From: Natronosalvus halobius
GTDB lineage: Archaea; Halobacteriota; Halobacteria; Halobacteriales; Natrialbaceae
DNA: 64,000 nucleotides
Assembly (NCBI RefSeq): GCF_024138145.1
Contig: NZ_CP099997.1
Location: forward strand, 2,728,001 to 2,792,000
Reading direction: 5' to 3'
Below are positions 12,959-57,832 of this stretch, in pieces. Position 1 is the first letter of the stretch, and every line of letters starts with the position of its first letter. The position numbers and the translations under genes are program-made. The notes under the pieces were generated by a model, which was not told the DNA's origin, made no database searches, and saw only the letters and a program-made list of their open reading frames with translations.

Positions 12959-13900
12959 TTACGGCTCGCAGTTCGTCAATCCATCGTCACAGGAGATGGT
13001 GACGGTTACGCTATCGGACTCGCCGCTCTTGTCGTAAAACGTCATATCGATCTCTGCGCCATCCATTGAAACCTCTTCGTCGCTCTCGTTGACGAACGCG
13101 TCGATCGTCACGGTGGCAAGATCCCCCTTCTCGAGGGTAACTCGTTTCCCATTTCCGTTGCCAAACTCGACGATCTGATCTCTAATCTCCCAGGGACTAG
13201 CGGATGCCGCTTCGGTATTCCCGACTCCGCCATTGACGATTACTTCTCCTGCTTGCCCTTCTTGCGAAATCTCGGTTGCTGCTGTAGATGTCCTGGTAAC
13301 CGAGACTTCTGTAATGTCGATTTTACCGCCGGTGTTGTTGATCGAAAATTCGACGACGCCTCCCTGAACGAAGTCGACGCTGGTAACCTCCAGCCCCGGT
13401 GGACCGTTCTTTCCGCCTCCGCCGCCAGGACAGTTCACGTCGATTTCTGCACTTGTAGTCCGCTCGAGTTCGATTTTCACGCTGCTTGAGGCCGTCAGTT
13501 GTACGGTGACCGTTCCTTGTCCTTTGAATTCTGACGTTCCGCACGTCACGACGACGGTGTAGTCACTGTTGGTGCCGTCGGTTTTGACGTGGGCCTCGAG
13601 ATCTGTATTTTGTCCGTTGAAGCTGACGATATCGGCGTTGACGTCGGCGTCGGACGCACTGAACAGCCCTGTGCTGTCGTTAACGTAAAAAATCTCGCCG
13701 CGCTGATTACCGGAGGGAGACACGTTTGCGCTTCTGTTTCCCGAGTTATCGATGATACCGAGTAATCCGTTGGGATCCGATGCCGTACTTACGGAGACCC
13801 CACGGTCAGCGCTGAGTGTGGAAAACCCGAACACTGGCCCGGCCAGTAATATCACCCCGACGACGACGAAGAGGACTGCGAGTTTGCTAACGGCGTTCAT
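12959..13900 (-). CDS. Secreted DUF1102-type surface protein
   Basis: The 313-aa product starts with a Sec-type signal (MNAVSKLAVLFVVVGVILL then AGPVFGFSTLSADRG). The mature protein is beta-rich, with Thr/Ser/Asn-rich segments, a DPNGLLGI motif and a FINN/FSINNTGG section. A Gly/Lys segment (CPGGGGGKNGPPG) splits it in two. It resembles the DUF1102 family often encoded next to SipW-like signal peptidases, as at 18427 here. The DUF7344 gene ends two bases before it in the same operon. It is probably a cell-surface or matrix component. Confidence 0.7.
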   Translation of the reverse strand: MNAVSKLAVLFVVVGVILLAGPVFGFSTLSADRGVSVSTASDPNGLLGIIDNSGNRSANVSPSGNQRGEIFYVNDSTGLFSASDADVNADIVSFNGQNTDLEAHVKTDGTNSDYTVVVTCGTSEFKGQGTVTVQLTASSSVKIELERTTSAEIDVNCPGGGGGKNGPPGLEVTSVDFVQGGVVEFSINNTGGKIDITEVSVTRTSTAATEISQEGQAGEVIVNGGVGNTEAASASPWEIRDQIVEFGNGNGKRVTLEKGDLATVTIDAFVNESDEEVSMDGAEIDMTFYDKSGESDSVTVTISCDDGLTNCEP

Positions 13901-13902
13901 GG

Positions 13903-14487
13903 CTATTGCGGGCGTTCCCCTTCACCTAGGCGGTTCCGCCGGTTCTCGAGTACGTGCACCACCGCCGACACGGCGAACAGACCGACGACGGCGGTCGACC
14001 AACCCAGCGTCGGCACTGCCTCGGTTGGGATGATCTCGAGCCAGAGCCCGGCCATCACCGCAGCAGCGACTGCCGAGAGACCGAGGTAGTAGACGCCCCA
14101 GGGGATCGAATCGCCGGGAACGATGTCCAGGTACACCTCGAGCTGCTCGGCTTCCTCCGTGAGTTCGATCGCTCGAGCGTCGAACTTGACCATTCCCGCG
14201 CGCTCGAGTGCTGGGAGGTGCGTTTGTTGAAGCGACGTGTACACTCGCTTACGTTCGGCGGAGGTGAGTCCCTGTATCTCTTTCTCGAGTTCCCAGGCGG
14301 CGACCTGTTCGGCCAGCGCACCGAGTTCGACGGTTTTGTCAGTCTGCTTGAGGTGGTGGATCGCGTACCGTCGACGGTGATTGCTTAGGAGGTCGAAAAT
14401 CTCGCCTCGACTGGGGCCGGTGGCGTTCCCGCCGCTCTCAGCCGTTTTAGCGTCGTTCTCGCCTACCTGCTCGGTAATCGTCGACAT
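13903..14487 (-). CDS. DUF7344 winged-helix protein with two TM helices
   Basis: The 194-aa protein has a winged-helix domain at about residues 27-110 (EIFDLLSNHRRRYAIHHLKQ and RKRVYTSLQQTHLPALERAG). This is the DUF7344 arrangement, common in halobacterial regulators. Two TM helices follow near 128-150 and 157-178, with a short charged tail. It heads an operon with the DUF1102 gene, so a membrane-tethered regulator of this surface module is the simplest reading. Confidence 0.8.
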   Translation of the reverse strand: MSTITEQVGENDAKTAESGGNATGPSRGEIFDLLSNHRRRYAIHHLKQTDKTVELGALAEQVAAWELEKEIQGLTSAERKRVYTSLQQTHLPALERAGMVKFDARAIELTEEAEQLEVYLDIVPGDSIPWGVYYLGLSAVAAAVMAGLWLEIIPTEAVPTLGWSTAVVGLFAVSAVVHVLENRRNRLGEGERPQ

Positions 14488-14581
14488 TGGCCCCCCGAAA
14501 TCTATCTAGAATTACTGAACTAAGGCTACATAACGTTTGTTGCCGTTGCACGTAGATCTAAACTGGTTTCAAGGGCGAGTT

Positions 14582-14603
14582 CCCCGCGTCACCGGACGCG
14601 GGG
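14582..14603. other. Left-end hairpin of the IS element
   Basis: CCCCGCGTC and GACGCGGGG pair perfectly around the loop ACCG, about 20 bp beyond the tnpA 3' end. This is the expected subterminal hairpin for TnpA recognition. Confidence 0.75.
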
Positions 14604-14622
14604 GTGAAGTCCGACACTCCGC

Positions 14623-15021
14623 TTAATGTTCAGTCTGTTCGATGTACCGCTGAACAACTTCCTCCGATACTGCCCCGGTAGTCCCAACATAGTATCCTAC
14701 TTTCCAGAATCCGCCACCCCAGAAATACGACTCGCGGATTTCAGGACGCCGTTCGAGAATGTGCTTCCCAGAGTACGACTTGAATTGCCGAGCAACATCA
14801 GCCGGGCTGTGTTTTGGGTCGGTCTGGACAAACAAGTGTATGTGGTCGTCCGCAATTTCCAACGCGAGTATCTCGTGTCCGAAGTGGTCGGCTGTCTCCG
14901 TGAACAACTCTGTCACCTCGTCATTGACAAGTCCAAGAACGGGGTGTCGGTACTTCGGACACCACACGAAGTGATGCTTACACGAACTAATCGAATATGC
15001 ATGACTCCTGTAGTCTCCCAT
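14623..15021 (-). CDS. tnpA: IS200/IS605 transposase TnpA (HUH Y1)
   Basis: The 132-aa protein starts at ATG 15021 (MGDYRSHAYSISSCKHHFVW). It carries the HUH pair in DDHIHLFVQ and the catalytic Tyr near the C-terminus (KVGYYVGTTG), so both active-site parts are intact. Tnp-A of this type excises and integrates single-stranded DNA at a short target. It is divergent from tnpB, 43 bp away. Confidence 0.95.
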   Translation of the reverse strand: MGDYRSHAYSISSCKHHFVWCPKYRHPVLGLVNDEVTELFTETADHFGHEILALEIADDHIHLFVQTDPKHSPADVARQFKSYSGKHILERRPEIRESYFWGGGFWKVGYYVGTTGAVSEEVVQRYIEQTEH

Positions 15022-15064
15022 CCTAATCCCTACTTTTATTATCATTTGATTCGATAGTCAAGGA

Positions 15065-16381
15065 ATGGGTATCGAACCAGTCACGAAGACCGCACGCACT
15101 CGGCTCTGCATAGAGTCTGGTGAGCGGTCGTGGCTCAAAGATGCCCGATTCACTGCACGAGATATCGCCAACGACACACTTCGTCTCAAGCAAGACGGCT
15201 ACAACAAGACCGAGATTCAACGGGAAGTTGACCGCGATGACTTCCTTCGGAACAACAAGTGTGCGGTCGTCGGGAAAGCCCTGCAAGCGTGGGACTCCTA
15301 CAAAGAACTCCTCAACTGGTGGTACAACCAAGACGACACAAACGTCGGGAAACCGTCGCCACCAGCCACGGACAAGAAAGGAGCCTACCCGCTCGTCATG
15401 GCGCACACCGAAGGCTACCGACTCACCTACAACGACGAGACTGACCGCATTCGGTTCCGTGTAAGTCCGAAACCGTACAAGAAGGTGAAAGGACACCTTC
15501 GAGGACGACCGGAAGACCTCAGCCTCATCGAGTCTGCCATAACGGAAGACGAGTGGTCGTTGGGACAGGCCGAACTTCTGTACCGAGATGGCGTGTACTA
15601 CCTACACGCCACGGTCAAAACAGAGGTCGAAGTGCCTGAACCCGAAAACGCTGACACACTCGTCGGCGTCGATATTAACGAGCGCAACATCGCCCTCACC
15701 GCTCTTAACCGTGAGACGATGGAGACGCTCGGAACACTCGTGCATGACTATGGCTCTGTGAAAGCCGAACGCCAACGCTACCACACCATCACGAAGCGCT
15801 GTCAAGAACACGGCCAACACTCCATCCATCACCAGCTCGGGGAGAAAGAAGAACGCTACACTGAGTGGGTTCTTCACCGAATGTCTCGGGTTGTGGTGGA
15901 GTTCGCCTAACAGTTCCCGAACCCAGTTATCGTATTCGAGGACTTGAGTGGGATTCGAGACGCCATCAAGTACGGTACGTACATGAATCGGCGTCTGCAC
16001 AAACTCCCGTTCCACAAGTTCGAACAACAGGTTCGCTACAAGGCAATGTGGAATCAGATTCCGTGTGAGACGGTCGAGTTGCCGTACAACTCGAAGTCGT
16101 GTTCGTGCTGTGGTCATCGTGGCTACCGCCAAAGTCGGCGGTTCCGCTGCACTAACGATGAGTGTGAGGTTCAGCAAGACCATGCTGACCGGAACGCGAG
16201 TGTGAATGTGGCGTGGCGAGCGTGGGCGAAACACGTTGGCGTAGATGTTAAATCGGTTAATTACCGGACTCGCAAAACCCAACCGTTTGTTCGGAAGGTG
16301 AGCCTGTCTGGGTCGGGGCGCTCTGTAAACCGCCCATCCTCATCCCGCGAAATCGCTTCGCGTGGAGTGCTTACGACATAG
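15065..16381 (+). pseudogene. tnpB: TnpB RNA-guided nuclease gene with in-frame ochre codon
   Basis: From ATG 15065 the frame reads a typical TnpB until TAA at 15908-15910 (VVEFA, stop, QFPNPVIVFEDL). The same frame then continues unbroken to 16381. The RuvC residues are all present: Asp in GVDINERN (about residue 203), Glu in VIVFEDL (codon 15938) and Asp in HADRNASVN (codon 16187). So is the zinc ribbon CSCCG...CTNDEC. The stop lies just before RuvC-II, so the truncated 281-aa product cannot cut DNA. This is one point change from function; readthrough or sequencing error are the alternatives. Confidence 0.9.
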
Positions 16382-16400
16382 GCTGAGGGAACAAGAAAAG

Positions 16401-16422
16401 CCACGGGCCACCGCGCCCGTGG
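16401..16422 (+). ncRNA. Right-end hairpin, likely 3' part of the TnpB guide RNA scaffold
   Basis: CCACGGGC pairs with GCCCGTGG just after the tnpB stop. In this family the right end encodes the omegaRNA (reRNA), whose 3' guide is copied from flanking DNA. The RNA's 5' boundary, probably within the tnpB 3' region, cannot be read from sequence. Confidence 0.5.
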
Positions 16423-16631
16423 TCGTTTACCACAAGTGTGTCTTTGACTCACATGGCGCTCTCTCAGACTGCCGATTTCGGCCGATCAAGGCCGTCTTGA
16501 AGCTGCGATTGGTGGCCCAGAACTGCTTCTGGCGACCTAATACAATGGGGGTGGCCTCGAGTGGGTGATGTAATGATCACGTCGGTATCCAGCGACTACG
16601 ATGCCGGCGCGGATCGAACGGAGACCATACA

Positions 16632-17183
16632 ATGAGACTCAACAGACGCAACGTGCTTGTCGGACTGGGAACGATCGTAGCTGGTGGCGGCGGCGCACTC
16701 GCGACGGGTGCGTTTAGTAGTGTGGAAGCGACGCGTGAGGTATCAATCGAGACTGCAGGGGACACGGATGGCGCCTTGATAGGAATCAACGTCACGGGTG
16801 ACCTCGCAGGAACCACCAATGATACAATCTCATTCGATCTCACCAATGACATCAACCTTGATGCAGTCACTAGGTTCAATGGTGCACTCACTATCACCAA
16901 CAACCGCGAGATTGAGGGTGGTGAGATCGATATCGAGATACACATTGATGAAACAGATGCAGTGACTGATGTTGCCACCGACGATGGTGGGATGCAATTC
17001 GAAGTTACTACCGATGGAGACCAAAATAATGTGTCCAGTAATGGCGGATCTGTAACCTTTGATGTCGTCTTTGGACTTGATGGATTCACGTCAAAAGAAG
17101 GTGTCGATGGTGCCAATGGTGCCGATGATGAAATCCCCGAAACGATCACCATTATCGCCAACGACTCTGACTCGACCGTATAG
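16632..17183 (+). CDS. Secreted DUF1102-type protein with Tat-like signal
   Basis: The 183-aa protein begins MRLNRRNVLVGLGTIVAGGG, a twin-Arg signal followed by a hydrophobic stretch ending near ALATGAFSSVEATR. The mature part is an acidic, Thr/Asp/Asn-rich beta protein (DGALIGINVTGDLAG). It is the first gene of the right arm and resembles the left-arm DUF1102 protein in type. It is probably the structural subunit of a surface fibre or matrix made with the downstream signal peptidase; that role is inference. Confidence 0.72.
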   Translation: MRLNRRNVLVGLGTIVAGGGGALATGAFSSVEATREVSIETAGDTDGALIGINVTGDLAGTTNDTISFDLTNDINLDAVTRFNGALTITNNREIEGGEIDIEIHIDETDAVTDVATDDGGMQFEVTTDGDQNNVSSNGGSVTFDVVFGLDGFTSKEGVDGANGADDEIPETITIIANDSDSTV

Positions 17184-17222
17184 TGGTTCCCTTTCGATAG
17201 AATAACTGAGTTGAATAGCTGA

Positions 17223-18347
17223 ATGTATCTGAAATTCGGGGCCGCGTTCGTGCTTGTACTCCTGTTAGCGGTACCTACGGCGGCTATCTCCCTCGAGCCC
17301 ACAGACACAACCGCTTCCATCGAACTCGAGGCGTCGAGCCCCTACGCTACCACCGAAAACGGCCAGCTAGAGCTCGACTTCGAGCGACTTAACGCCGATT
17401 CAGTGACGACGGTCGATGAAGCGTTCACCGTACGCGCGACAGACGAGAACGTCGACCGCATCTGGCTCTCGGGCACCGACGGCGTCACCTTCTACCGAAA
17501 CGGCGATCCTGGAGACGAAATAACCAAGAAATCGCCGCTAGAGCCTACCACTGGCCAGCCCATCACAGTGGGCGTCTCCATCGACACGCACCAGGCGAGG
17601 GAGGGAACGGAGTCGTTCACGATCCACGTGGGATACGACGACGATGACGAGGACGACGAAACCGACCCCGACCCGCCGACGCTCGAGCGTGTCATCGTCT
17701 CGGACACCGAGGTGACCGTCGGCGAGACGATCACGGTCACGGGTATCTACCGGGGCGGGTCCCAGTCGATGGCGACGATGGCTGGGCTGACCGTCGACGA
17801 CATCGTCGTCAGCCAGAAACGGGTGTTCGTCTTCGGCGGCGAGAATCGATCCGTCTCCTTCGAGCGGACGATGGACGGACCCGGGACGTACGAGGTTGGC
17901 ATCGACGGCCGGACGCACACGGTGACGGTCACCGAACCCGAACCCAAACCGGGCGAATCGGTGCCGAATATGACAGTGACGGGGGTCGACCTCGACCGGA
18001 CCGAGGTCGCAATCGGGGAGCCCATTACGGTCACGGCGACCGTCGAGAACACGGGCAACGCGACGGGGGTACGAACCCTCGAGTTCGCCGTCGGCGGGTT
18101 CGTCGTCGAGACGGAGCGGGTGGAACTCGCGCCCGGCGAGACTCGACAGGTCGAGTTCGAGCGATCGTTCGCCGACTCCGGACGCTACGCGCTGGCGCTC
18201 GAGGGCGAGGCGGTGGGTACCGTCACGGTCGTCGGACTACCGTCGATTGCGGCGATCACGGCGCAATTACCGTCGGAATCGGCGGCGGCGCTCGCCGTTC
18301 CGGCCGCGCTCGGCATCGGGTTCGTCGTCCGGCGGCGGCGAGCGTGA
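17223..18347 (+). CDS. CARDB-like secreted, membrane-anchored surface protein
   Basis: The 374-aa protein has a Sec signal (MYLKFGAAFVLVLLLAVPTA). An Asp-rich linker (YDDDDEDDETDPDPP, near residue 139) separates its parts, and two Ig/CARDB-type repeats follow (VTVGETITVTG and IAIGEPITVTATVENTG-like). A C-terminal hydrophobic helix (AAALAVPAALGIGFVV) ends in RRRRA, which anchors it to the membrane. It lies 39 bp after the DUF1102 gene, in one likely operon with the signal peptidase. A role in anchoring or capping the surface protein is inference. Confidence 0.68.
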   Translation: MYLKFGAAFVLVLLLAVPTAAISLEPTDTTASIELEASSPYATTENGQLELDFERLNADSVTTVDEAFTVRATDENVDRIWLSGTDGVTFYRNGDPGDEITKKSPLEPTTGQPITVGVSIDTHQAREGTESFTIHVGYDDDDEDDETDPDPPTLERVIVSDTEVTVGETITVTGIYRGGSQSMATMAGLTVDDIVVSQKRVFVFGGENRSVSFERTMDGPGTYEVGIDGRTHTVTVTEPEPKPGESVPNMTVTGVDLDRTEVAIGEPITVTATVENTGNATGVRTLEFAVGGFVVETERVELAPGETRQVEFERSFADSGRYALALEGEAVGTVTVVGLPSIAAITAQLPSESAAALAVPAALGIGFVVRRRRA

Positions 18348-18426
18348 GACGAGCAGTTAAGACGATTCGAATGCGAGACAGGGAAAACACGACCGTGCCA
18401 GGAGCGAACTCGAGGGAGCGACGACG

Positions 18427-19596
18427 ATGAACGGGACGTCGATAGCCAAACAGGTCGCGATGGGGCTGGTGGGCCTCGTCGTGGTACTGCTGGTGCTCGG
18501 CCAGGTGCTGGGCCAGCCGATACTGCTCGGCTACGTCGCGACGGGGAGTATGGAGCCAACGCTTTCGGCCGGCGACGGGTTCGTCGCGGTCCCGAGCGCG
18601 GTGACCGACGCACCCGAACCCGGCGATGTCGTCGTCTTCGAGGCCGAGACGTTACACGGGGGCGGACTCACGACCCATCGAATCGTCGCCGAGACCGACG
18701 AGGGGTACGTGACGCGGGGCGACGCCAACCCGTTCACCGACCAGGACGGGGGCGAGCCACCGGTCACCGAGGGGAAGATCGTCGCCGAAGCCTGGCAGAT
18801 CGGGGGGTCGGTCGTCCGGGTCCCGCACCTGGGAACCGTTATCATGAGCGTCCAGGGGCTCGTCGGGGCCGTCTTCGGTCTCCTGGCGGCGCCGCTCGGG
18901 ATCACGGCCGCCTTCGACGCCGAAGGGACCGGTGCTCTGCTGGTGGCCCTCGGGGTCGGCCTGCTCGGGGTCGGCTTGCTGCTCGAGCGTGTCGGCGTGG
19001 CCGAACGGCGGACGGCGCGACGAACCAGCCGCGAGAACGTGATCGGCCTCTGGTCGGCGCTGTCGGCCGTCGTCGTCGTGCTCGCCCTGTTCGCGACCGC
19101 GGCGATGGTGATCCCGGCAGGCGGAACCGCGTACGAACTCGTGAGTACCGACTCGCCGACCGACGACCCACAGATCGTCGCCCCCGGGGAGACGACGACG
19201 CTTACGCGAACGATCGACAACAGCGGCTACGTTCCGGTCGTCGTCGTACTCGATGCGCCACACCCCGCCGTCGATGCCGAGCCGCGGTCGACGACGGTCG
19301 GCAGTCGCGACACTGCCGAGGTAGCGCTCTCGATGACGGCACCGGAGACGACGGGGAGCTACACCCGCGACGTCGTCGAGAGTCGGTACCTCCTCGTCTT
19401 GCCACCGACGCTCCTCGTCTGGCTCCACGACGTCCACCCCTTCGTGGCCATCGGCGCGGTCAACGTCGTGATCGTCGCCGTGGCCGTTGGTCTCGTGTTC
19501 GCCCTCTTTGGCACCGGAGACCTCCGGATCCGGACGCCTGGATCGCACCTCCCGCTTTCCAGGCGACTCGAACGCTTGCTCGAGAAGTGGCTGTGA
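18427..19596 (+). CDS. Archaeal signal peptidase I (S26B, SipW-like) with extra membrane domain
   Basis: The 389-aa protein has an N-terminal TM helix, then the catalytic Ser in TGSMEPTL (Ser41), the catalytic His in LTTHRIV (His84), and TRGDANPFTDQ. This is the Ser-His type of archaeal and ER signal peptidases, also found in SipW. Three or more TM helices and an Ig-like region fill the C-terminal half, so it is longer than the core enzyme. Its neighbours are secreted proteins, so it probably processes them specifically. Confidence 0.88.
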   Translation: MNGTSIAKQVAMGLVGLVVVLLVLGQVLGQPILLGYVATGSMEPTLSAGDGFVAVPSAVTDAPEPGDVVVFEAETLHGGGLTTHRIVAETDEGYVTRGDANPFTDQDGGEPPVTEGKIVAEAWQIGGSVVRVPHLGTVIMSVQGLVGAVFGLLAAPLGITAAFDAEGTGALLVALGVGLLGVGLLLERVGVAERRTARRTSRENVIGLWSALSAVVVVLALFATAAMVIPAGGTAYELVSTDSPTDDPQIVAPGETTTLTRTIDNSGYVPVVVVLDAPHPAVDAEPRSTTVGSRDTAEVALSMTAPETTGSYTRDVVESRYLLVLPPTLLVWLHDVHPFVAIGAVNVVIVAVAVGLVFALFGTGDLRIRTPGSHLPLSRRLERLLEKWL

Positions 19597-19759
19597 TCGC
19601 CCCTCGCGCGCCCAGCCCGCTCGATCGATGGCCGCTACTGTTATAATCGATGAACGACGACCTATCGTATCGCGTGACTTTCCGCACTGTGCTACATGGG
19701 GAATTGGCCGACGGCGAGTCACAGCCAGCGACGGGGTCCGACGGGAGGGAGGGGACGCC

Positions 19760-20920
19760 GTGACGAACACGCCGCGGCTCGACTTACTGATCGCCAGGTC
19801 CGGTCGACCGATCCTAATCGCGCTGCTCGTGATCGGCACGATTGCCCTGCTCGCGACCGGCTGGGTCGTCGCGAACCCGTCGACGACCACGACTACCCAG
19901 GAGGTCGATCGCCAGACGGTTTCGACGCAGGTCGGCACGGAAGCCGTGGTCGTCCAGGACGGTCTCTGGGAGGCGGGAACGGTGCTCGAGGACAATCCTG
20001 CGTACGTGATCAACGCCTCCCCGGAACTCGAGGTCGTCGCAGAGACGGCGGTTCCGAGCGACGAGACGAGCCTCGAACACGAGATCGTCCTCAGGTACGC
20101 GGCCTCGCGCAACGGCGAGGTGTTCTGGGAGTCAGAACGGGTGCTGGCGGCCGAGGAACCGACGGTCACGGACGGACAGGGCGTCACCAGGGCGTCGGTC
20201 GACGTCCGAGAGGTCCAGGACAGACGTGAGGAACTCAGGGCCCGCCTCGACGGGGTCGGCACGGTCGACCTCTCGCTGATCGTCCGCACGAGTTACGATA
20301 CGGGGACGCACGTCGGCGAGCACGCCCCGTCGACCTCGTTCGTCGTCACCGAGCGGAGTTACTATCTCGAAGACCATCCCGAAGAGTCGGACCCGAACCC
20401 GGTCACCCAGACCGTCGAGACGACGGACCCACCCAGTTCCGCGCTGATCGGCGCCCTCCTGATCCTCACGGTGGGTTCGTTCGGTGGGGCCGCGTTCGTC
20501 AACTCCCGCTCCGACGTCGACGTCGACCGAGCACGGCAGGCGATTCACGAGAATCGCTACGCGGAGTGGATTTCGCGGGGCTCGCTGCCGATGTGGATTG
20601 GCGACGAACACGTCTCGCTCGACACGCTCGAGGACGTCGTTGACGTCGCTATCGACACGAACGAGCGCGTGATCCACGATCGGAGCCGCGGCCTGTTCGC
20701 GGTCGTCAGCGACGGCGTCGTCTACTACTACAGCGACCGCGGGCTCTGGGAGGAGACGGCGTGGCCGGACTTCGACCTGGAGGAGCGGCCGACTCCGGGC
20801 GACGTGGTCTCACCCGGTGACGGCGACGAATCGTCGGCTCGACCGGGCGATAGCGGACCGAAGCCGCCGTTCGAGGACTTGCCGGACCCCGAGGACGACG
20901 ACGCCTGGAACAATCTGTGA
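19760..20920 (+). CDS. DUF5305 membrane protein
   Basis: The 386-aa protein starts at GTG 19760 (VTNTPRLDLLIARSG). One TM helix lies near residues 17-38, a large extracytoplasmic beta domain follows (VVVQDGLWEAGTVLEDNP, EHEIVLRYAASRNG), and a second TM near 235-252 precedes a cytoplasmic domain with RYAEWISRGSLP and VVYYYSDRGLWEE. The layout matches DUF5305, usually found next to SipW-like peptidases and DUF1102 proteins. It may serve as assembly partner; function is unproven. Confidence 0.8.
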   Translation: MTNTPRLDLLIARSGRPILIALLVIGTIALLATGWVVANPSTTTTTQEVDRQTVSTQVGTEAVVVQDGLWEAGTVLEDNPAYVINASPELEVVAETAVPSDETSLEHEIVLRYAASRNGEVFWESERVLAAEEPTVTDGQGVTRASVDVREVQDRREELRARLDGVGTVDLSLIVRTSYDTGTHVGEHAPSTSFVVTERSYYLEDHPEESDPNPVTQTVETTDPPSSALIGALLILTVGSFGGAAFVNSRSDVDVDRARQAIHENRYAEWISRGSLPMWIGDEHVSLDTLEDVVDVAIDTNERVIHDRSRGLFAVVSDGVVYYYSDRGLWEETAWPDFDLEERPTPGDVVSPGDGDESSARPGDSGPKPPFEDLPDPEDDDAWNNL

Positions 20921-47164: not shown

Positions 47165-50100
47165 ATGAAAAGGGATTGGGATAGAAAATTACTCGCGATC
47201 GTTTTCTCGGTCCTGTTGATAACTGGTACTGTCGCGCCGACGGTGATGGCATCATCGGCGACCGAACCGCCCAGTGGGCCGGCCCCCACAGCACACCTTG
47301 CCGATACGGACAGAACAGTAGGGGAAGAACCGATCGCTCAGGATGGCGACTACGAAACGGCACTCACGTACCGGAATATTGCCAAGGAAACGTTACAGGG
47401 GAGCGATCTGCGTGGAAAGAGCAAGGAACGGCTCCTGGACGATCTCAATGGGACGTACGCGTTCGTTCTCGACGAAAACCGTGTCGACTCGAGCGCCGTC
47501 TTTCACGCCGATCGCACGCTCGTCGCACGGACCCAGCAACGTCACCCGGAGGTCGCGGCATATGTAGCGACCGCCGACGCACACCTCGCGACGACGGCGA
47601 TCGCCGACGCAGAGCGCGTCGCCGATCAACTGGTGGCGCGAAACGTGTCGTTCGACGAGGCGATCGTTCGGGCGAACATCACGGCGGCGCGAACCGCGTA
47701 CGAGAACGGACTCGACCATCAAGAAAACGGGCGGCTCGTCGCGGCGGTTGTCGAGTACGAACGGGCGTGGACGAACGCCCAGTACGCCCTGGCACGGATG
47801 GACCGCGCAGTCGACCCGATCGTCGAGATCACCCACCGCGAGGATCCGCCACACGACGGCAACCTCACGTACTCGGTCGACGGAACCGTGTACGACGTGC
47901 ACACGGCGAACGTGAACGCGACGGTCGCCATCGGCGGCGAGGAGCGCGAACTGGTGTTGAACGGCAGTACCGTTCCCGGAACCGTGGCCACGTTTAACGA
48001 CACTCTCTTGCTCGAAGAACAGGTGAACACCGTCACCGTCACGGCGGAAAATCCCGCGGGAACGTTCGTTTCCGTCGACGCCACGCCTGCAACGGATGCC
48101 CGATCGACTGAGGAACGGTCGGACAAGAAGGGGCGTGGGAACGGCGATGAGAACAGGGGCGGAAACGGCAACACCAACGATGACAAAAAGGGTAACGCGA
48201 AAAATACCGGGGGCCACAACACTGACCACGAGGTCGCAACCGATTCCGCGCCCGCTATCGAGATCGAACGGCCACAGCGAGGCGCTGACGAACTCTTCCT
48301 CGATGCCGACGGGCTGCCCGACTGGTACGAACTCGAGGTGACGGGAACGGCCCCGCTCGACCCGGACAGCAACTCGACGTTCACGGACGCAAACGAGTCC
48401 GACCGGGGACTGCTCGACGGGCAGAAGGACCTCGACGGCGATGGGCTGATCACCTACGAGGAGTACTGGATCGGCACCGATCCCCTGGACCCGGACACGA
48501 GCGGCGACGGTCTCGAGGACGGCTGGCAAGTCTACGTGTCGGGAACCGACCCGCTGGTGAACGACTCGTTCGACGACGGCGTTCTCGACCGCGACCGCGA
48601 CCTCAGCGGTGACGGGTTGACGCTGCTCGAGGAGCAAGCCCACGGAACGAATCCGCACGTTCCGGATACGGACGGGGACGGGCTGACGGATTACGCGGAG
48701 ATACACGTCCACGGAACCGATCCACTGGTTCGGGACACGAGCGGCGACGGACTCACGGACGGCGAAAAGGTTCGCCTCGAGCTCGATCCGCTGGCCAACG
48801 ACACGGCCCCGGACGGGACGCCCGCGAGCGAGCAGACGTTCACGACGGAGACGACCGACGAGGACAGCGGGGTGACCGTTGCAGCGACTGGTCAGGGTGT
48901 CGTTGCCGACGAAATTAGAGTGACGAACGTCAGTGACGGATTGGACGCGGCCGATCCAGTCGCGGGACCGATGGTTCGGATTACGAACGATACCGCCTTT
49001 GAAAGTGCGACGGTCGAACTCCCGATCGAGGAATCGATCACCGACGCTGAAAATATCACGGTCATCAAGTGGGATCCGTCGACTGACGATGGATGGAGGC
49101 CCGTCGACACGACGGTCGACGAAACGAATCGAACCGCGACAGCAACCGTTGGCTCGTTCTCGTACATCGTGCCAATTTACGGGGGCGGTACCGGGATTGG
49201 CAGTTGGCGGGTCACCGAATCGCCGGGCTGGCCGGTTCTCGAGGATTTCCAGACACTCGAGGGGTGGACGGCCGACGGCGACGTCGATCAGGTTGACGGC
49301 GTCGCCAAGGTGGGAAGCGGGTACGAGGTCTACGTTAGTGACCACAGCTCATCGGAAAACGTCGGCATCCTGGAGATCCCGACGTGTGATAAGTACCCCG
49401 ACCTGGAGAATTGTGTGCCGACCGGTGGGGACGATGACGACGACAGCGACGGTGATAGTGGTGGCGACGATGATGGCAGCGACGACGGTGATAGTGGCGA
49501 TGATAGTGGAGACGGCAGTGATGACGAGGATAACGATGGTGACGATGATGGTGGAGACGGCAGTGATGACGACGATAACGACGGCGACGATGATAGTGGA
49601 GATGGCAGTGATGACGACGACCACGAGCCTGTTCCGACAATATCGACCCTCGAGCGAACGGTATCGCTGTCCGAGGCGGAAACGATCCACTTCGACACGC
49701 GGTTGCGCGGAACCGGAGACGCCGAACTCAGGCTGATCGGTGACGACCGGACGAGAACGGTCTCTGCTCATTCGGACTGGCACAACACATCGCTCAGAGT
49801 CTCTGATTTCGCCGGTCAGGAGGTGACCGTCCAGCTCCGGGCCGAGAACGACGACGAACTCGAGGTCGACTACGTGAGCTTCCTCGAGGACACTGCGGAC
49901 ACCGGTATCCCCGACGAAGTCCAGACGATGCCCCTCAGGATGCGTCATGGCCCACCGGGCGTTTTCTGGTCCCCTCTCGACCTCGATCCGACAGTTGCGG
50001 ACACGAGCGGCGACGGGCTGACCGACGCCGAGGTCATCGACCTCGAGTGGGATTTCGTCAGGTCCGACCGAGGCGACGGTGCCTGGGACCTCAAAGCCGT

Positions 50101-51403
50101 GGTTAACGGTGCTACTGCCCACCCCGCTCGCACCGACACCGATGGCGACGGCCTCTCGGATTACGAAGAACTCGAGATCTGGGGGACAAATGCGTTCCTG
50201 GAGGACACGTCGGGTGATGGTTTCAACGACCTCGTGGATCCGGCCCCGCTCGAGGTGACGACGCCACCGGAGGTGCGCTACGAGACGGAGTCGCTCGCGT
50301 GGGTGTACGAGAACGAGCTACGCGTCGAGGCTCGAGGGGACGATGGCGCGAGTGAGATCGCCGAAATCGAGATGGAGAAGTTCGTCGATCCGTGGGGGCG
50401 AAGCTCCGACTGGCAGACGGCGTCGATCGAAGAGATCGACGATACCGGCGAGTGGTACACGACGCGCTTTGACTTCCGTGACGAACGGTATCGATCGAAC
50501 GTGAAACCGGATACGGTCATCGTGACCGTCACCGACATTGACGGTAACCAGCTGGTGATCGAAGACGATAGAAAAAGCGGGACGACCAAGCTGTACGCTG
50601 GCTTCGCGGCTGCCGGTACCGCAGGTGCAAAGACGGTCAGAGCCACCAGACCGGTCGCGTCTCTGGGCCTCCATGGGAGAGTCGCGGTCGCGGTTTCTGT
50701 CGGCGCAGTGGCGGGTGGCACCTTCGCGCATTCGCTGGCGACGTCGACGACCTACAGCGGCGAGGAGGTTCACGAGACCTATCCGATGCCCGTGCCGCCG
50801 ACGCCAACCGAAGGTACCTGGGAGACGCCAGAGGGGCTCGAGATCACGCTCCCAAGCGGGGCAGTCTACGAACACGAGATCCACGACCACGAGCGCCGCC
50901 ACGGCTGGGAGCAGGTCAAACAGCTGCCGGGCATCGAGCAACCTGGCGACGTCGGTCAGATCATCGAAGCGCCCAACGCGATCGTACAGGACGGCCGGTA
51001 TACGCTAGTGATCGGGGACAATCTCGGCGGTGATGGACAGGTCGTGGTACGAGTGCTCGAGGGGCTGATCGTCTCAGCTGCAGAAATTGTCGAAGATCCC
51101 ACCGGAAAACACGTCGAAATCGACCGTACGGACAATCATCCAGTACGGGACGATGGAAACCACATTCGCGATTACGAGGTTGTCAAGCAGGTTATTCGAA
51201 ACCCGGATCAGATCTATCAGAACGGGCAAAATCGGCTCTACGCCAAACAGATCGACGGACGTTGGTATACGGTCAGAGCGTACGAGCACCCAAGCGGAAT
51301 CATCACAATCGGCACATCTGTTATTTACGATAGCCGTAAGATGCTTGACCAATTCCTTGAGGATAAGGGCTATCCCGAGGAGCCAGTATACGAGTCAGAT
51401 TAA
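47165..51403 (+). CDS. Full-length secreted polymorphic toxin (toxin A)
   Basis: The 1412-aa protein has a Sec signal (KLLAIVFSVLLITGTVAPTV, cleaved near residue 29), a helical N-terminal domain, a Lys/Asn/Gly linker (about 320-365), and Ca-binding-type repeats (DTDGDGLTDYAEIH and similar, about 377-547 and 942-1025). An Asp-rich linker (about 752-823) and a lectin-like beta domain separate the two repeat sets. A domain with TPPEVRYETESLAWVYE and hydrophobic helices (VASLGLHGRVAVAVSVGAVA) follows, ending at PSGAVYE (about 1235). The last 175 residues are a variable tip with two related segments (IIEAPNAIVQDG, VIRNPDQIYQNG). The immunity gene follows 26 bp later. Layout is that of a contact-type polymorphic toxin; the activity of the tip is not proven. 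Confidence 0.8.
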   Translation: MKRDWDRKLLAIVFSVLLITGTVAPTVMASSATEPPSGPAPTAHLADTDRTVGEEPIAQDGDYETALTYRNIAKETLQGSDLRGKSKERLLDDLNGTYAFVLDENRVDSSAVFHADRTLVARTQQRHPEVAAYVATADAHLATTAIADAERVADQLVARNVSFDEAIVRANITAARTAYENGLDHQENGRLVAAVVEYERAWTNAQYALARMDRAVDPIVEITHREDPPHDGNLTYSVDGTVYDVHTANVNATVAIGGEERELVLNGSTVPGTVATFNDTLLLEEQVNTVTVTAENPAGTFVSVDATPATDARSTEERSDKKGRGNGDENRGGNGNTNDDKKGNAKNTGGHNTDHEVATDSAPAIEIERPQRGADELFLDADGLPDWYELEVTGTAPLDPDSNSTFTDANESDRGLLDGQKDLDGDGLITYEEYWIGTDPLDPDTSGDGLEDGWQVYVSGTDPLVNDSFDDGVLDRDRDLSGDGLTLLEEQAHGTNPHVPDTDGDGLTDYAEIHVHGTDPLVRDTSGDGLTDGEKVRLELDPLANDTAPDGTPASEQTFTTETTDEDSGVTVAATGQGVVADEIRVTNVSDGLDAADPVAGPMVRITNDTAFESATVELPIEESITDAENITVIKWDPSTDDGWRPVDTTVDETNRTATATVGSFSYIVPIYGGGTGIGSWRVTESPGWPVLEDFQTLEGWTADGDVDQVDGVAKVGSGYEVYVSDHSSSENVGILEIPTCDKYPDLENCVPTGGDDDDDSDGDSGGDDDGSDDGDSGDDSGDGSDDEDNDGDDDGGDGSDDDDNDGDDDSGDGSDDDDHEPVPTISTLERTVSLSEAETIHFDTRLRGTGDAELRLIGDDRTRTVSAHSDWHNTSLRVSDFAGQEVTVQLRAENDDELEVDYVSFLEDTADTGIPDEVQTMPLRMRHGPPGVFWSPLDLDPTVADTSGDGLTDAEVIDLEWDFVRSDRGDGAWDLKAVVNGATAHPARTDTDGDGLSDYEELEIWGTNAFLEDTSGDGFNDLVDPAPLEVTTPPEVRYETESLAWVYENELRVEARGDDGASEIAEIEMEKFVDPWGRSSDWQTASIEEIDDTGEWYTTRFDFRDERYRSNVKPDTVIVTVTDIDGNQLVIEDDRKSGTTKLYAGFAAAGTAGAKTVRATRPVASLGLHGRVAVAVSVGAVAGGTFAHSLATSTTYSGEEVHETYPMPVPPTPTEGTWETPEGLEITLPSGAVYEHEIHDHERRHGWEQVKQLPGIEQPGDVGQIIEAPNAIVQDGRYTLVIGDNLGGDGQVVVRVLEGLIVSAAEIVEDPTGKHVEIDRTDNHPVRDDGNHIRDYEVVKQVIRNPDQIYQNGQNRLYAKQIDGRWYTVRAYEHPSGIITIGTSVIYDSRKMLDQFLEDKGYPEEPVYESD
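49502..49625 (+). repeat. 45-bp in-frame tandem repeat coding an Asp-rich linker
   Basis: Units starting GATAGTGGAGACGGCAGTG, GATGGTGGAGACGGCAGTG and GATAGTGGAGATGGCAGTG begin at 49502, 49547 and 49592. Each codes DxGDGSDDxDNDGDD. Change of copy number stays in frame, so the linker length can vary. Confidence 0.85.
50256..50872 (+). repeat. Recombination segment in toxin A (copy 1 of 617-bp duplication)
   Basis: This stretch of toxin A, from the TPPEV codons to the GAVYE codons, recurs almost base for base at 56635-57252 in the same orientation. The copies diverge immediately after the GTCTACGA bases, exactly where the toxin tips begin. Confidence 0.93.
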
Positions 51404-51428
51404 TGGGAAGCACAATGGTAGGATTATT

Positions 51429-52118
51429 ATGAGTGATGGGAACGAAACTGAACAAGTTGATAAAATCGGGGCAGTCACTCAAACCATTAGTGACTGCAAA
51501 GTATATGCACGAACGAAACGTCGGGCGGGCGAACTCGAGACTGCAGGGATGTACTATGTGGCTGGGGGCCATGGCTCGTTGATGCAGTTCCGGAGATTGC
51601 CCAGCGATTTGACTGATCCCAATACAGTTCCTTCACCGAGACCGTATGCGTTCGGGTCTGCAATCAGATATCTGTTACTCGGTACGCTGTGTTTCCGCCT
51701 CGCGGGAGCACTCGATCGCTGTCGCTATCACTGCGAGCAAGGGGAGGCAATCGTTTCGGGCGTGCTTGAGGAGCCGGTATTCACGACGGAGGCACAGATC
51801 GGGCTCTGTCACGAGCTACGGGGTGACTTTCGGCTGATAGGCGGTACCGGGAACCACGACGACGAGTACGCGCTGGCCGCCGAGAGATACGAGAAAGTGG
51901 AAAACGATCTCGGCTGGTCGATGGAAAGCGAGTTCGAAGACGTCATCCAAATCCCGCTCGAGCTGGCCGACTCGGTCGGCATGGGCGTCGACGATGATCG
52001 CCGAAACGAACTCATGTATCTCTCGCTCGAGGAGCGAATCGCGTACAAACGCCATACGTACCCCGAAATCATTGATGCCGTGGTGGAAGCAGGTAACTGG
52101 AAATCCGACGTGTTGTAA
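51429..52118 (+). CDS. Immunity protein A (same family as immunity D)
   Basis: The 229-aa protein starts at ATG 51429, 26 bp after toxin A. It shares a family with the protein at 57833: RYLLLGTLCFRLAGALDRCR matches NLLRAAICYRVGGRMDRCRN, GDFRLIGGTGNHDDEYALA matches GDFRCIGNFGDPTSAYDQA, and EERIAYKRHTYPEIIDAVVE matches SFKEDAYPSLLDDLTE. No signal or TM is visible, so it acts in the cytoplasm, presumably by binding the toxin A tip. Base composition is less GC-rich than flanking housekeeping genes. Confidence 0.7.
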   Translation: MSDGNETEQVDKIGAVTQTISDCKVYARTKRRAGELETAGMYYVAGGHGSLMQFRRLPSDLTDPNTVPSPRPYAFGSAIRYLLLGTLCFRLAGALDRCRYHCEQGEAIVSGVLEEPVFTTEAQIGLCHELRGDFRLIGGTGNHDDEYALAAERYEKVENDLGWSMESEFEDVIQIPLELADSVGMGVDDDRRNELMYLSLEERIAYKRHTYPEIIDAVVEAGNWKSDVL

Positions 52119-52250
52119 TCGCCATCGATACTCGAGGACTGGACTCGGATCCCTTTTGTGGTGATCCTTGTTTCGGCCCTCGATTCGGCTATCATGTCTT
52201 CGGCCGTTCCCCGCTGTTGTTGCTCTTTTCTCCTCCGCTCGCATCCACTC

Positions 52251-52656
52251 CGCCGTCGACGGCCTGACCGATCGCCAGCAACTCGAGGGCTGGAAGATCC
52301 ACGTCGTCGACGAGCACCGCCACGCCGAAGCGATGATGGAGGCGCTCGCCGACCCGGACGACGACCGCGACCTGGGGCAGTTCTTCACCGAACGACCGGT
52401 GAAGGCGAACCCGCTGATCGACGACACCGACGGCGACGGATTGAGCGATGCCGAGGAGTTCGAGTTGGGGACCGATCCCGAGCTTCGGGATACGACTGGT
52501 GACGGAATTTCGGACCGAGACGCTCTCGAACTCGACAGGGAGGATCCGACAGTGTTCACGGTAACGCCACCGGAAGCAAAATTATTAAAAATAAACCAAG
52601 AGCTGGAATACGGAGAATACTATATTCCAGAATATCAGGTAGAGTATCAATATTAG
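52251..52656 (+). pseudogene. 5'-truncated stalk fragment of toxin B
   Basis: Without a signal peptide or start of the family, the frame begins inside a Ca-binding-type repeat (DGLTDRQQLEGWKIHVVDEH, then DDTDGDGLSDAEEFELGTDP and DTTGDGISDRDALELD). It runs into FTVTPPEAKLL and stops at TAG 52654-52656. The same frame continues at once into toxin B. So it is the inner part of a lost full-length gene, joined to its tip but interrupted by an amber codon. Confidence 0.75.
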
Positions 52657-52674
52657 ATCAGTGATCCCGCTGGC

Positions 52675-54258
52675 GTGGCAAGTGCTGAACTCAGGCGTGA
52701 TGGTGCGAGATTTGACGAGAAAACGTATTCTGGTAAGAAGTCGGAAATCGACACCTCGACGTTCAAGTCGACCCTCGAGATCGCTCTCACTCCGTGGCGA
52801 GGCTCGCTGACGACGATCACCGTCGAAGACGTCCACGAGAACATAGGAACCGAGACGCTGTACTACAAACACCCGTACGCGGTCAAATTAGCGACCGAAC
52901 TCAACTCGCCCGAGGAAGCAGGGGTTCTGACCGGTGTTACGATGGGTGCGGCCGAGTTGCCTGATTTCTTTCGCCTGGTTCGGGAGGAGCCCCATGAGAT
53001 GGCGATGGTGATGGCCGAGTTCATCGGGGAGATGAATCGGGCCGCTGTGGATCCGAGGCGGAATCCCTGGGTCGAGATCGCGAAGGATCTGCCACCGAGC
53101 ATCTATCACGATCAACAGCAGGCGAATCCGTATCCAGCTCCCTCGAGCGATCCACTCGAGTCGTTCTCGACGTGTCTGGGAACGCTCGGCTACTCTGACG
53201 GCGACCACCTGGGGCTCAGCGAGGATGAGTTTACCCACTGCCAGTTCGCCAACGGCTGGTATTCGGGCTACAGCGCGTTCCTCGTCATCGAGACGGTCGT
53301 CGGCGACAAAGGGCTCTCGAAAGGGGCGACGAGTGCGAGCGACGTGGCCACCCAGCTGCGGCGGGCCTCGGACGACCTCGAGAGCGTCCTGCCGGCGGTT
53401 CGGTCGGGGCAGTCGATGCGGACGACCCAGATCAGTCATCGACTGCTCACCGACGGTGGCCGGCAGCTAGACGATCTGTCGCCACAGTTCCGGACGGCCG
53501 GGAAAACCGCCCAGGGGGTCAAGCGATTCGAGGCGGTCGATCAGCGAACTCTGAATCGACTCGATAGCTCCCAGCGAACGGAGCTCCTCCACCATTTGGC
53601 CGATGCGCCGAACGGCCACCGCGTAATCAACGACCTGGGGCTACACCGAACCGAGCAATTGTTCAGACTCTCCTACGATGGCGTCGACACCGTCCAGTTC
53701 CGGGCGAACATCCTCCAACACGGTGATGCTATTAGTCAGCCGCGCCTCAACCAGTATATTGACGACGCGACGACGGCACGTTCACACGCCACCATCCGGA
53801 ACCCCGAGGGGCCCGTTGTTGAGGCCGCTCGCGAGGGGATTGCCCCAAGCCAGATCAGAGGGCAAGCCGGCGAGGCCAAGAGTGCCGTCCGGTACGCTGA
53901 CGAGGGTGCAGATGTAACTGTCGAACCTGGAAAGGGTGACTACGATTTGGCCGTTATTCGAGATGGACGAACGGAGTACGTGGAGGTGAAAACCCCGGCA
54001 GTCGGTACATCAATCAACCGTAACTACTGGCTACGGCAAACAGAGTCGATGAACAAGAAGTTTGACAATACTGACGATCTCGCTCGCAAGGATGCTGTCC
54101 TTGAAGTCCAAACTACGAGAGGAATCTCACAACTAGACGATGCAGTGTCAGAACTAAACGAATTGGTAGAGACTCCTGGGATCACGACGAACTTCGGGGA
54201 AATACGCATCCATTCGACGAACGCGGACACGAGGATTGTCAAAATAGACTCCGTATGA
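52675..54258 (+). CDS. Orphan toxin B with PD-(D/E)XK-like nuclease tip
   Basis: The 527-aa frame can start at GTG 52675 and is in frame with the stalk fragment before it. Residues 1-60 look like the end of the beta domain seen in toxin A (DPAGVASAELRRDG). A long pretoxin follows, including ATQLRRASDDLESVLPAVRS, which recurs in cassette C. The C-terminus has GDYDLAVIRDGRTEYVEVKT, an Asp ... Glu-x-Lys arrangement typical of PD-(D/E)XK nucleases, preceded by a helix with GQAGEAKSAVRYADEG. It overlaps the immunity gene by 4 bp. It lacks its own secretion signal, so it is a silent cassette or an intracellular toxin. Confidence 0.72.
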   Translation: MASAELRRDGARFDEKTYSGKKSEIDTSTFKSTLEIALTPWRGSLTTITVEDVHENIGTETLYYKHPYAVKLATELNSPEEAGVLTGVTMGAAELPDFFRLVREEPHEMAMVMAEFIGEMNRAAVDPRRNPWVEIAKDLPPSIYHDQQQANPYPAPSSDPLESFSTCLGTLGYSDGDHLGLSEDEFTHCQFANGWYSGYSAFLVIETVVGDKGLSKGATSASDVATQLRRASDDLESVLPAVRSGQSMRTTQISHRLLTDGGRQLDDLSPQFRTAGKTAQGVKRFEAVDQRTLNRLDSSQRTELLHHLADAPNGHRVINDLGLHRTEQLFRLSYDGVDTVQFRANILQHGDAISQPRLNQYIDDATTARSHATIRNPEGPVVEAAREGIAPSQIRGQAGEAKSAVRYADEGADVTVEPGKGDYDLAVIRDGRTEYVEVKTPAVGTSINRNYWLRQTESMNKKFDNTDDLARKDAVLEVQTTRGISQLDDAVSELNELVETPGITTNFGEIRIHSTNADTRIVKIDSV

Positions 54259-54965
54259 GTGAACCTAACAAGAATCACGTCGCCGTACATAGGGATCGAG
54301 AGGTAATGTACTGGGCGTTCATCATGCCATCGAGAGTGGAAACTTGCGAAGCACAGGCCAACGAGATGGTAGCCCGGTGCGAGACGCTCTTCGAAACCTT
54401 CGAAGACTTCATCGTCCCCACGGAGATCAACTATGCCATTGGCAGGTTTCCACCGGGCCAGCGCCTCCTAGTCGGAGTGAGTATGAATGAGTATCTCGAA
54501 ACTATCGAGCGAGAACTGCGAAACGAATCCGGGATCACTGTCGAAGCATTTCGAGATTCGACACACGTGGACGAATCGGGATCACGATGGATCCCCCGCG
54601 TCGCGTTCGACGGGACTGAGGTGAAGGTGCGGCTGAACGACGGTGACGTGGCCGCCTCAAGACGCAGTAACACAGTTGAGTACCGTAAGGACGAGCCGCT
54701 CAATAACGATCCAACGCAAGATCCACTTGAACTGTCGGTACTGCATGGTTCGAATACCGACAATTACGATACCGATGCGGGGTACGTTACGAGCATTATC
54801 GTGGCACCAATGAGTGACATTTGGTTCGAAGAGTCGGATATCGGAACGATGAATCGGCGACATCTCACTGCATTCCTCGAACGGATCGAAAACACGTTCC
54901 CCGTCGTGGATGTCGAACGGACGTCCGAGTGGTTGCCCCTCACTGCCCTTGAGGCGGTGTACTAA
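54255..54965 (+). CDS. Immunity protein B
   Basis: The 236-aa protein starts at ATG 54255 in an ATGA overlap with the toxin B stop, so it is translationally coupled. It is acidic, soluble and unlike immunity A/D. Phrases include FETFEDFIVPTEINYAIGRF and DAGYVTSIIVAPMSDIWFEE. Position and coupling point to an inhibitor of the nuclease domain. No family is recognised. Its GC content is below that of surrounding genes. Confidence 0.65.
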   Translation: MSEPNKNHVAVHRDREVMYWAFIMPSRVETCEAQANEMVARCETLFETFEDFIVPTEINYAIGRFPPGQRLLVGVSMNEYLETIERELRNESGITVEAFRDSTHVDESGSRWIPRVAFDGTEVKVRLNDGDVAASRRSNTVEYRKDEPLNNDPTQDPLELSVLHGSNTDNYDTDAGYVTSIIVAPMSDIWFEESDIGTMNRRHLTAFLERIENTFPVVDVERTSEWLPLTALEAVY

Positions 54966-55192
54966 ACAGAACCCAGTGGCGCTGTTATATCGCTACTCAA
55001 TAGTAATGGCGTCAAATATCCGTATTGAGTTCCAATAGAAGCCATCTCCTCGCATGCTGACAAATTTTCGAAAGTTCATTTTTTGTCACTTTCTAGTTCA
55101 GCGTCTCCGCCGCAGGCGTTCGTCTATCTAACACTGGATTCGGTTTTTCATCCGGGTTCGTTCTTACGCTATTGAGTTCAAGGCTGTGAATC

Positions 55193-55724
55193 ACCTGCTG
55201 TCGCCACTCAGTTACGACAGGCCTCGGACGCCCTCGAGAGTGTCCTGCCGGCGGTCCGGTCGGGGCAGTCGATGCGGACGACCCAGGTCAGTCACCGGCT
55301 CGTCCCTGACGAAGGGAACCCGCACATCGATACACCGGCGGTCAGGACCGGGTTACAGGAGCGGGGCTTCTCGCCCGGGAAACAGAAAGTAGCGGTCACG
55401 AGGCTCGACGAACTCTCGGGCACCCACCTTAGCCACCTCTCCTCGAGCGAGCAGACCGCACTGGCAGCCCGGCTGGCGAACAGCGCCGACGGGGACGCCG
55501 CGGTCCGGTTCGTCAACGACCTCGAGCACGCGAGTGACGTGCGGTATTTCCTCGACGAGGAACTGGCGACGACGAACCGGCTGGTCGACTTCCACGCGAA
55601 CAAGCATCGCACGACGGGTCAGACTCGAGGCGTCTCGAACCGTCATCTCAATCCAGAGCTCGAGGCGAACGACTTTGTCCACGTCGCGCGAAACGGCGAC
55701 GTGAACGAGGTTCATGTGATGTGA
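55193..55724 (+). pseudogene. Truncated pretoxin fragment of cassette C
   Basis: The frame starts abruptly with ATQLRQASDALESVLPAVRS, which matches toxin B (53345-53452 against 55193-55300, about 83% identical by eye), then diverges into LDELSGTHLSHLSSSEQTAL and ends with DVNEVHVM and TGA at 55722. The 5' part of the gene is missing. An in-frame ATG at 55272 exists but would give an odd start. The next toxin domain begins in another frame at 55721, so a frameshift or coupled reinitiation joins them. Confidence 0.7.
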
Positions 55725-56505: not shown

Positions 56506-56634
56506 CGGCTAGTGGATGTTGATGATGACAGTCGTGGATTGAAAGGAGACAGCAAACCAAACAGTACGCCGCTATCTCGTAATTACCATCAATATCGAAC
56601 GTCGTAGATGGCTCGGAAATGCGCGTGGTGACTG

Positions 56635-57831: not shown

Positions 57832-57832
57832 T

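Follow-up and report, generated by a model that had tools for sequence, protein, structure and literature searches.

The window analysed here, a 64-kb stretch of the 3.85-Mb genome of Natronosalvus halobius, carries a locus whose genes are arranged in two divergent groups. On the minus strand lie the gene for a secreted TafC-like subunit of 313 amino acids (12959-13900), which possesses a Sec-type signal peptide, a two-Cys domain and a variable C-terminal domain, and the gene for a DUF7344 winged-helix protein, a putative regulator whose C-terminal part holds membrane helices (13903-14487; PF24035, E = 4.1e-28). The plus strand encodes a rod pilin of 183 amino acids with a Tat signal (16632-17183; phmmer match to PDB 9p0a, E = 5.3e-14), a TafF-like membrane anchor of 374 amino acids, the CARDB protein (17223-18347; PF07705, E = 2.4e-8), a dedicated S26B/SipW-like signal peptidase (18427-19596; TIGR02228, 50.6 bits, below its cut-off of 51.85; SipW model, E = 2.4e-8) and a DUF5305 membrane protein of about 386 amino acids with a GTG start (about 19760-20920; PF17231, E = 1.3e-48). 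An IS200/IS605 element (about 14562-16427) occupies the divergent promoter region.

All six genes named in the initial annotation were found, with unchanged coordinates, from the open reading frames and the Pfam and NCBIfam profile matches. The assignments of a CARDB-type anchored protein, which also has a C-terminal membrane helix, of a SipW-like S26B peptidase, in which the S26B residues are invariant, and of a DUF5305 membrane protein were each upheld by their profile matches. The membrane tether of the DUF7344 protein was likewise recovered, its role as a regulator being putative. That the genes lie together is true in so far as their grouping across loci is far above chance, but here they are not contiguous, as the IS200/IS605 element lies between them. 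This element, the link to tafi pili and the apparent exchange of the rod described below are additions to the initial annotation.

Conversely, the description of the 183-aa and 313-aa products as two DUF1102 proteins did not survive. In a Pfam scan, neither matched DUF1102 (PF06510) at E<1, which rules out their membership of this family, and the only match to it within the locus covers residues 27-58 of the CARDB protein, at 21.7 bits against a gathering cut-off of 22.2. Seven of the 78 aligned pilin sequences do match DUF1102 (best E = 3.6e-9), and the profiles thus indicate that the label is right only at the superfamily level. Moreover, the two proteins do not appear to be equivalent secreted proteins, but rather a rod subunit (183 aa) and a TafC-like end piece (313 aa).

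The rod pilin begins with the Tat signal MRLNRRNVLVGLG, which opens with MRLNRRNVLV and ends between GA and FSS, combining a twin-arginine signal with an AF cleavage site. Cleavage is predicted between A27 and F28, and the signal is followed by the donor strand and then by the groove domain. Across 78 pilin sequences, R5, R6, A27, F28, A33 and R35 are invariant. The NCBIfam models of the Taf proteins remain below their cut-offs on this protein, with 67.6 against 155 bits for TafE (NF052522) and 45.4 against 190 bits for TafA (NF052520), and the TafC model reaches 16 bits on the locus against a cut-off of 410. The solved Natrinema pilin likewise falls under the Taf cut-offs, and these scores therefore refuse only the equivalog names (TafA/TafC/TafE, of the Haloarcula type).

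The link to that solved pilus is direct. In Natrinema gari, the locus has a single pilin gene and the same gene order as in the window, and the product of this syntenic gene is 100% identical to PDB 9p0a, entitled 'Structure of Natrinema sp. J7-2 Tafi pilus'. This identity shows that the locus type makes a real fibre. Furthermore, the 9p0a chain comprises 188 residues and ends at 215, which implies that the mature protein starts at F28, that is, at the invariant AF site. The proposal that a fibre is built with the help of a dedicated peptidase is thus well supported, and it is very likely that a fibre is made by the locus in the window. When the genome was searched for a TafA-type gene elsewhere, the TafA and pilin profiles matched this locus only. 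A type IV pilus was considered and is ruled out by the signals, which belong to the Tat or Sec type and have AF or GF sites; among the locus genes, neither an assembly ATPase nor a platform gene was recognised.

Further surface-protein genes were observed. Many taf loci of the Natrialbaceae (L047, L057, L059, L062, L073, L087 and others) additionally encode a protein of roughly 1000 amino acids whose start resembles archaeal pilin-type signals, for example VSPIVGLVLLIGMVIAATALLFLIG; the window has no such gene. The taf loci of Haloferax (L130, L131, L133 and L137) contain two or three pilin-like genes, and one Haloferax pilin-like group (c32, about 206 aa) has no AF site. Within the window, the genes at about 47165-58450 are for the most part absent from the syntenic DNA of the sibling genomes, have a GC content mostly of 0.52-0.60, and include those for proteins of 1412 and 162 amino acids with TSP3 repeats; this run is possibly a strain-specific surface-protein island.

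Conservation within the fibre locus was assessed against the two nearest genomes. Protein identity amounts to 97-99% for the signal peptidase, 94-95% for the DUF5305 protein, 90-92% for the DUF7344 protein, 85-88% for the anchor and 74-77% for the TafC-like protein, and to 29-33% for the mature pilin. When the nucleotide sequences are compared with those of the siblings, identity is 88-90% in the promoter region, 95-99% in the sequence coding for the pilin signal peptide and 93-94% in the peptidase gene. Directly after the signal peptide there is a sharp break: the segment encoding the mature pilin (16713-17183, plus strand) is 57-58% identical, and identity returns to 89-92% inside the anchor gene. 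Among the 36-40 genes of the 64-kb window that are shared with the siblings, median identity is 92-94%, with the pilin lowest and the TafC-like protein second lowest. The hypervariable segment that encodes the mature pilin has a GC content of 0.48 and a GC3 of 0.48; the GC3 of the peptidase gene is 0.86.

The pilins nearest to that of the window are those of Natronosalvus hydrolyticus and Natronoglomus, the peptidases of which are merely 62-71% identical to the one described here. The sibling pilins, by contrast, whose accompanying peptidases are 97-99% identical, come 38th and 75th of 159 when ordered by their similarity to the window pilin. Conserved machinery with a divergent pilin is also found in pairs from Haloferax, Natrinema, Natronococcus and Natronorubrum, and other close pairs retain one pilin (89-96% identical), which implies that any exchange happens in episodes. 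Where a locus holds several pilin genes, it is less certain which of them are to be paired for this comparison.

These differences between siblings could in principle have arisen by fast divergence under diversifying selection, with no replacement of the gene. Pilins are in general variable and low in GC3, and functional constraint on the signal peptide would be compatible with such a course. Yet a mature part with a DNA identity of about 50-57% and indels stands next to upstream non-coding DNA and a signal sequence at 88-99%, the pilins of more distant species are closer to the window pilin than those of the siblings are, and the sibling pairs at 89-96% identity indicate that the rate of pilin change is not uniformly high. 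We consider divergence without replacement unlikely. From these sequence comparisons, it appears that the rod was replaced by recombination, which fits the data best, a purely fast clock fitting less well. In the open-access literature, nothing to the point was found on known pilin exchange in haloarchaea. In a DNA comparison with one sibling, the N-terminal domain of the TafC-like protein is 73% identical (the rest 90%) and the first part of the anchor 84% (the rest 89%); that these two regions vary is as expected should they touch the rod, although this is a suggestion only.

Searching the whole genome with the pilin profile yields exactly three matches, all within this locus. Profile columns 1-176 are matched by the pilin itself, 43-177 by the CARDB protein and 28-153 by the 313-aa protein (E = 1.1e-4); the CARDB protein match omits the signal and donor-strand columns, and that of the 313-aa protein begins at the mature end. 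Cleavage of the TafC-like protein is predicted between G25 and F26, and the site is followed by the donor-strand motif FSTLSADRGVSV and by the two-Cys domain, which extends to about residue 160. The donor-strand motif is common to the TafC-like family and the pilin, and C120 and C157 are present in 37 of 37 TafC-like sequences. By hhalign, this family is related to the Haloarcula-type TafC with a probability of 98.6 (E = 1.2e-15, 143 columns). The C-termini of the TafC-like relatives are unrelated domains, among them a bactofilin-type solenoid (9/40), LamG (1/40) and others.

The anchor, in turn, consists of a Sec signal, a pilin-like domain without the donor strand, a CARDB domain and a C-terminal membrane helix. 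Its family aligns with the pilin profile (hhalign probability 98.2, E = 5.8e-14) with a deletion of 10 residues at the donor strand, and the anchor also aligns with TafF (probability 96.6, E = 5e-10), which itself has a similar gap at the donor-strand site. Directly after the predicted cut (P1'), all 78 of 78 pilins have Phe and 36 of 37 TafC-like proteins have Phe or Tyr, as against one of 26 anchors. For TasA, the requirement for SipW has been linked to an aromatic residue close to the cleavage site (PMC10269814).

Together, these profiles suggest that the anchor is the base, having a groove but no donor strand, that the pilin, having both, is the rod, and that the TafC-like protein, having the donor strand, is an end piece. 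The groove, the donor strand and the polarity of the fibre are inferred from sequence profiles and the published mechanism of TasA. In Bacillus, the N terminus of TapA is donated and its Ig fold is complete (PMC10151520), raising the possibility that the TafC-like protein is an initiator, instead of or besides being a tip. By analogy, it may thus serve either as a cap or tip or as an initiator of the fibre.

The fold of the pilin was compared with known structures by means of a predicted model of moderate confidence (pLDDT 72, pTM 0.67). The first-ranked Foldseek match was the Pyrobaculum bundling pilus 7ueg, with a weak E-value of 0.056, and no match had an E-value under 0.001. In a second structural comparison, 7ueg gave a Z of 6.5 (117 residues, 8% identity), 9p0a a Z of 6.1 and the Sulfolobus thread 7pnb a Z of 5.2, values which are similar to those of unrelated Ig-like folds. 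TasA itself is absent among the structural matches listed for the pilin model, which excludes nothing. In the 313-aa protein, an Ig-like domain was modelled with confidence; the fold search with this model returned generic Ig-like and PapD-like matches and was unusable for identification. Against Pfam, the 183-aa protein has no match to any family at E<1 and the 313-aa protein has unrelated weak matches only, so that neither matches the TasA/camelysin family. Since the Pyrobaculum bundling pilus has been described as TasA-like (PMC9674648), the analogy with TasA that the initial annotation drew appears to hold at the level of donor-strand fibres, though not as membership of the TasA/camelysin sequence family.

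A stricter form of this analogy would make the locus a TasA-type biofilm-matrix system, which releases its fibres, employs the TafC-like protein as a TapA-like initiator and builds no cell-anchored pilus. The SipW-like peptidase would suit such a system, as would the donor strand and confidently modelled Ig-like domain of the TafC-like protein, which recall TapA (PMC10151520), and a fold nearest to that of a TasA-related bundling pilus. However, one protein of the operon combines a pilin domain with a C-terminal membrane anchor, as suits a cell-anchored pilus, the Pfam match to the camelysin/TasA family is absent, and the solved homologue 9p0a is named a pilus. A released matrix is therefore quite improbable as the product of this locus, and a cell-anchored tafi pilus is preferred. 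For the role in a biofilm matrix that the initial annotation suggested, the analysis yielded no support, and it is kept as a hypothesis.

In the peptidase, S41, H84, D99 and D105 are invariant across 17 sequences, the motifs GSMxP, TTHR and GDxNPFxDQ are present, and its profile matches human SEC11A/C (E = 2e-4). Between its membrane helices lies a C-terminal, Ig-like extracytoplasmic domain. The genome has a single full-length copy of this dedicated peptidase (605 bits). A second, shorter S26B-type peptidase is encoded on another contig of the same genome (G000:C3:30115-30432, minus strand) and is presumably a general signal peptidase.

Among 63 peptidase-anchored loci with full flanks, DUF5305 was found in 62, the pilin in 62, DUF7344 in 58, the TafC-like protein in 55 and a CARDB/TafF-type anchor in 42-43; the grouping of these genes is far beyond chance. 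The DUF5305 gene is the only copy in the genome of the window, and across 59 genomes 64 of 67 copies sit at most 10 kb away from the dedicated peptidase, the random expectation being roughly 0.7%. Co-occurrence, which the initial annotation had proposed to test, is observed: the pilin, the peptidase and DUF5305 are all present in 45 of the 59 genomes and all absent from 11, leaving three exceptions. For DUF5305 and the peptidase, the co-occurrence has a Fisher p of 8e-11 with phylogeny ignored; shared ancestry inflates these counts, but the exceptions are nevertheless few. DUF5305, to which no Taf model of the NCBIfam scan corresponds, is thus an overlooked, near-universal partner of the system and its most constant neighbour, and a candidate for the assembly platform. 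A relationship between DUF5305 and the additional domain of the peptidase received no support (hhalign probability 4%), and a sequence search for solved relatives of DUF5305 gave weak, implausible matches only.

As regards the IS200/IS605 element, its TnpA gene (14623-15045, minus strand; NF033573, E = 1.8e-42) is intact, and its TnpB gene (15065-16381, plus strand; guided_TnpB matches) is broken by a single in-frame TAA at 15908-15910. Two sibling genomes have no such element at the homologous site, and their empty sites set its borders. Between these borders and the flanking genes lie 74 bp on the DUF7344 side and 204 bp on the pilin side, in each case upstream of the gene. Although the element sits in the divergent intergenic region, it is highly doubtful that its insertion severed the divergent promoters and that the locus is decaying and silent in this strain, for both remaining upstream stretches are 88-100% like those of the siblings and the fibre genes are all intact. 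The element might, however, weaken expression of the fibre genes.

Our preferred reading, which we regard as likely, is that the product of the locus is a Tat-fimbria (tafi pilus) of the Natrialbaceae type, a donor-strand fibre resembling TasA and AbpA, the rod gene of which is periodically replaced. In this mechanism, the pilin would be exported via Tat, and the TafC-like protein and the anchor via Sec. The dedicated peptidase would cut before Phe or Tyr, thereby freeing the N-terminal strands of the pilin and the TafC-like protein. The strand of the first pilin would enter the open groove of the anchor, and that of every further pilin the groove of the preceding one. As a strand donor, the TafC-like protein would either cap the distal end as a tip adhesin or start polymerisation as TapA does. 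DUF5305 and the Ig-like domain of the peptidase would hold the subunits at the membrane, and the DUF7344 protein would control both divergent operons. Replacement of the rod gene would proceed by recombination between the conserved promoter and signal-peptide region and the anchor gene, and the pressure behind it probably comes from viruses or other recognition.

A bolder extension, to which we would give slightly less than an even chance, is that tafi pili vary in a serotype-like manner. Machine, base and promoter would be fixed, the rod cassette would be swapped between species at the near-invariant signal peptide, and the TafC-like protein would be swapped more slowly, providing new identities towards pilus-binding viruses or in kin recognition; DUF5305 would be a hitherto unrecognised core assembly component. 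If true, the exchange of rods would clearly parallel, in archaea, the variation of serotypes or antigens, and the forces behind the diversity of haloarchaeal surfaces could be tested on it directly. The analysis also ties the DUF1102-like, DUF7344, DUF5305 and CARDB anchor proteins to one recently recognised archaeal pilus and gives each part a testable place as base, rod, end, scissors, platform or switch. DUF5305, in particular, offers a concrete starting point for studying how donor-strand fibres with neither chaperone nor usher are assembled.

Of the known systems, the Sulfolobus threads (PDB 7pnb; Z 5.2) are archaeal donor-strand filaments for which no sequence relation to the pilin was found, and the Pyrobaculum bundling pilus (7ueg) is the best Foldseek match of the pilin model, yet shares 8% identity with it and comes from another phylum. 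The TasA/TapA/SipW system of Bacillus subtilis similarly has a dedicated archaeal-type peptidase in its operon, the logic of an N-terminal donor strand and, in TapA, an accessory protein acting as a strand donor (PMC9674648, PMC10151520); the aromatic residue adjoining the cleavage site, described for TasA (PMC10269814), is a further likeness. Unlike that system, the locus in the window has a Tat-exported rod, a TafF-like membrane-anchored base, DUF5305 and DUF7344, and no sequence match to TasA/camelysin.

The closest counterparts are the haloarchaeal tafi pili, for which the name and the Tat dependence are attributed to Galeva et al., iScience 2025 (doi 10.1016/j.isci.2025.111793), as cited in PMC12687288. 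With these, the locus shares a Tat-signal pilin, homologues of TafC and TafF, an S26B peptidase and DUF7344, all in one locus. In genomes with TafA, TafC, TafE and TafF above the cut-offs, the gene order is peptidase, TafC, DUF7344, TafA and, divergently, TafE and TafF, with DUF5305 adjoining, and from this order we infer that the DUF7344 protein takes the TafB position and the peptidase the TafD position. In contrast to the Haloarcula type, the locus in the window has no TafA-type gene and scores under the NCBIfam Taf cut-offs. It departs from known tafi loci also in its TafC-like protein, which is of the Sec type and has no LamG domain, in its TafF-like protein, which has a CARDB domain and one C-terminal helix, in the position of the peptidase and DUF5305 genes in line after the pilin gene, and in a rod that appears to be replaced relative to the siblings. 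The locus is thus a known kind of system, tafi, in a variant make-up, and what is new is the apparent exchange of the rod and DUF5305 as a candidate component.
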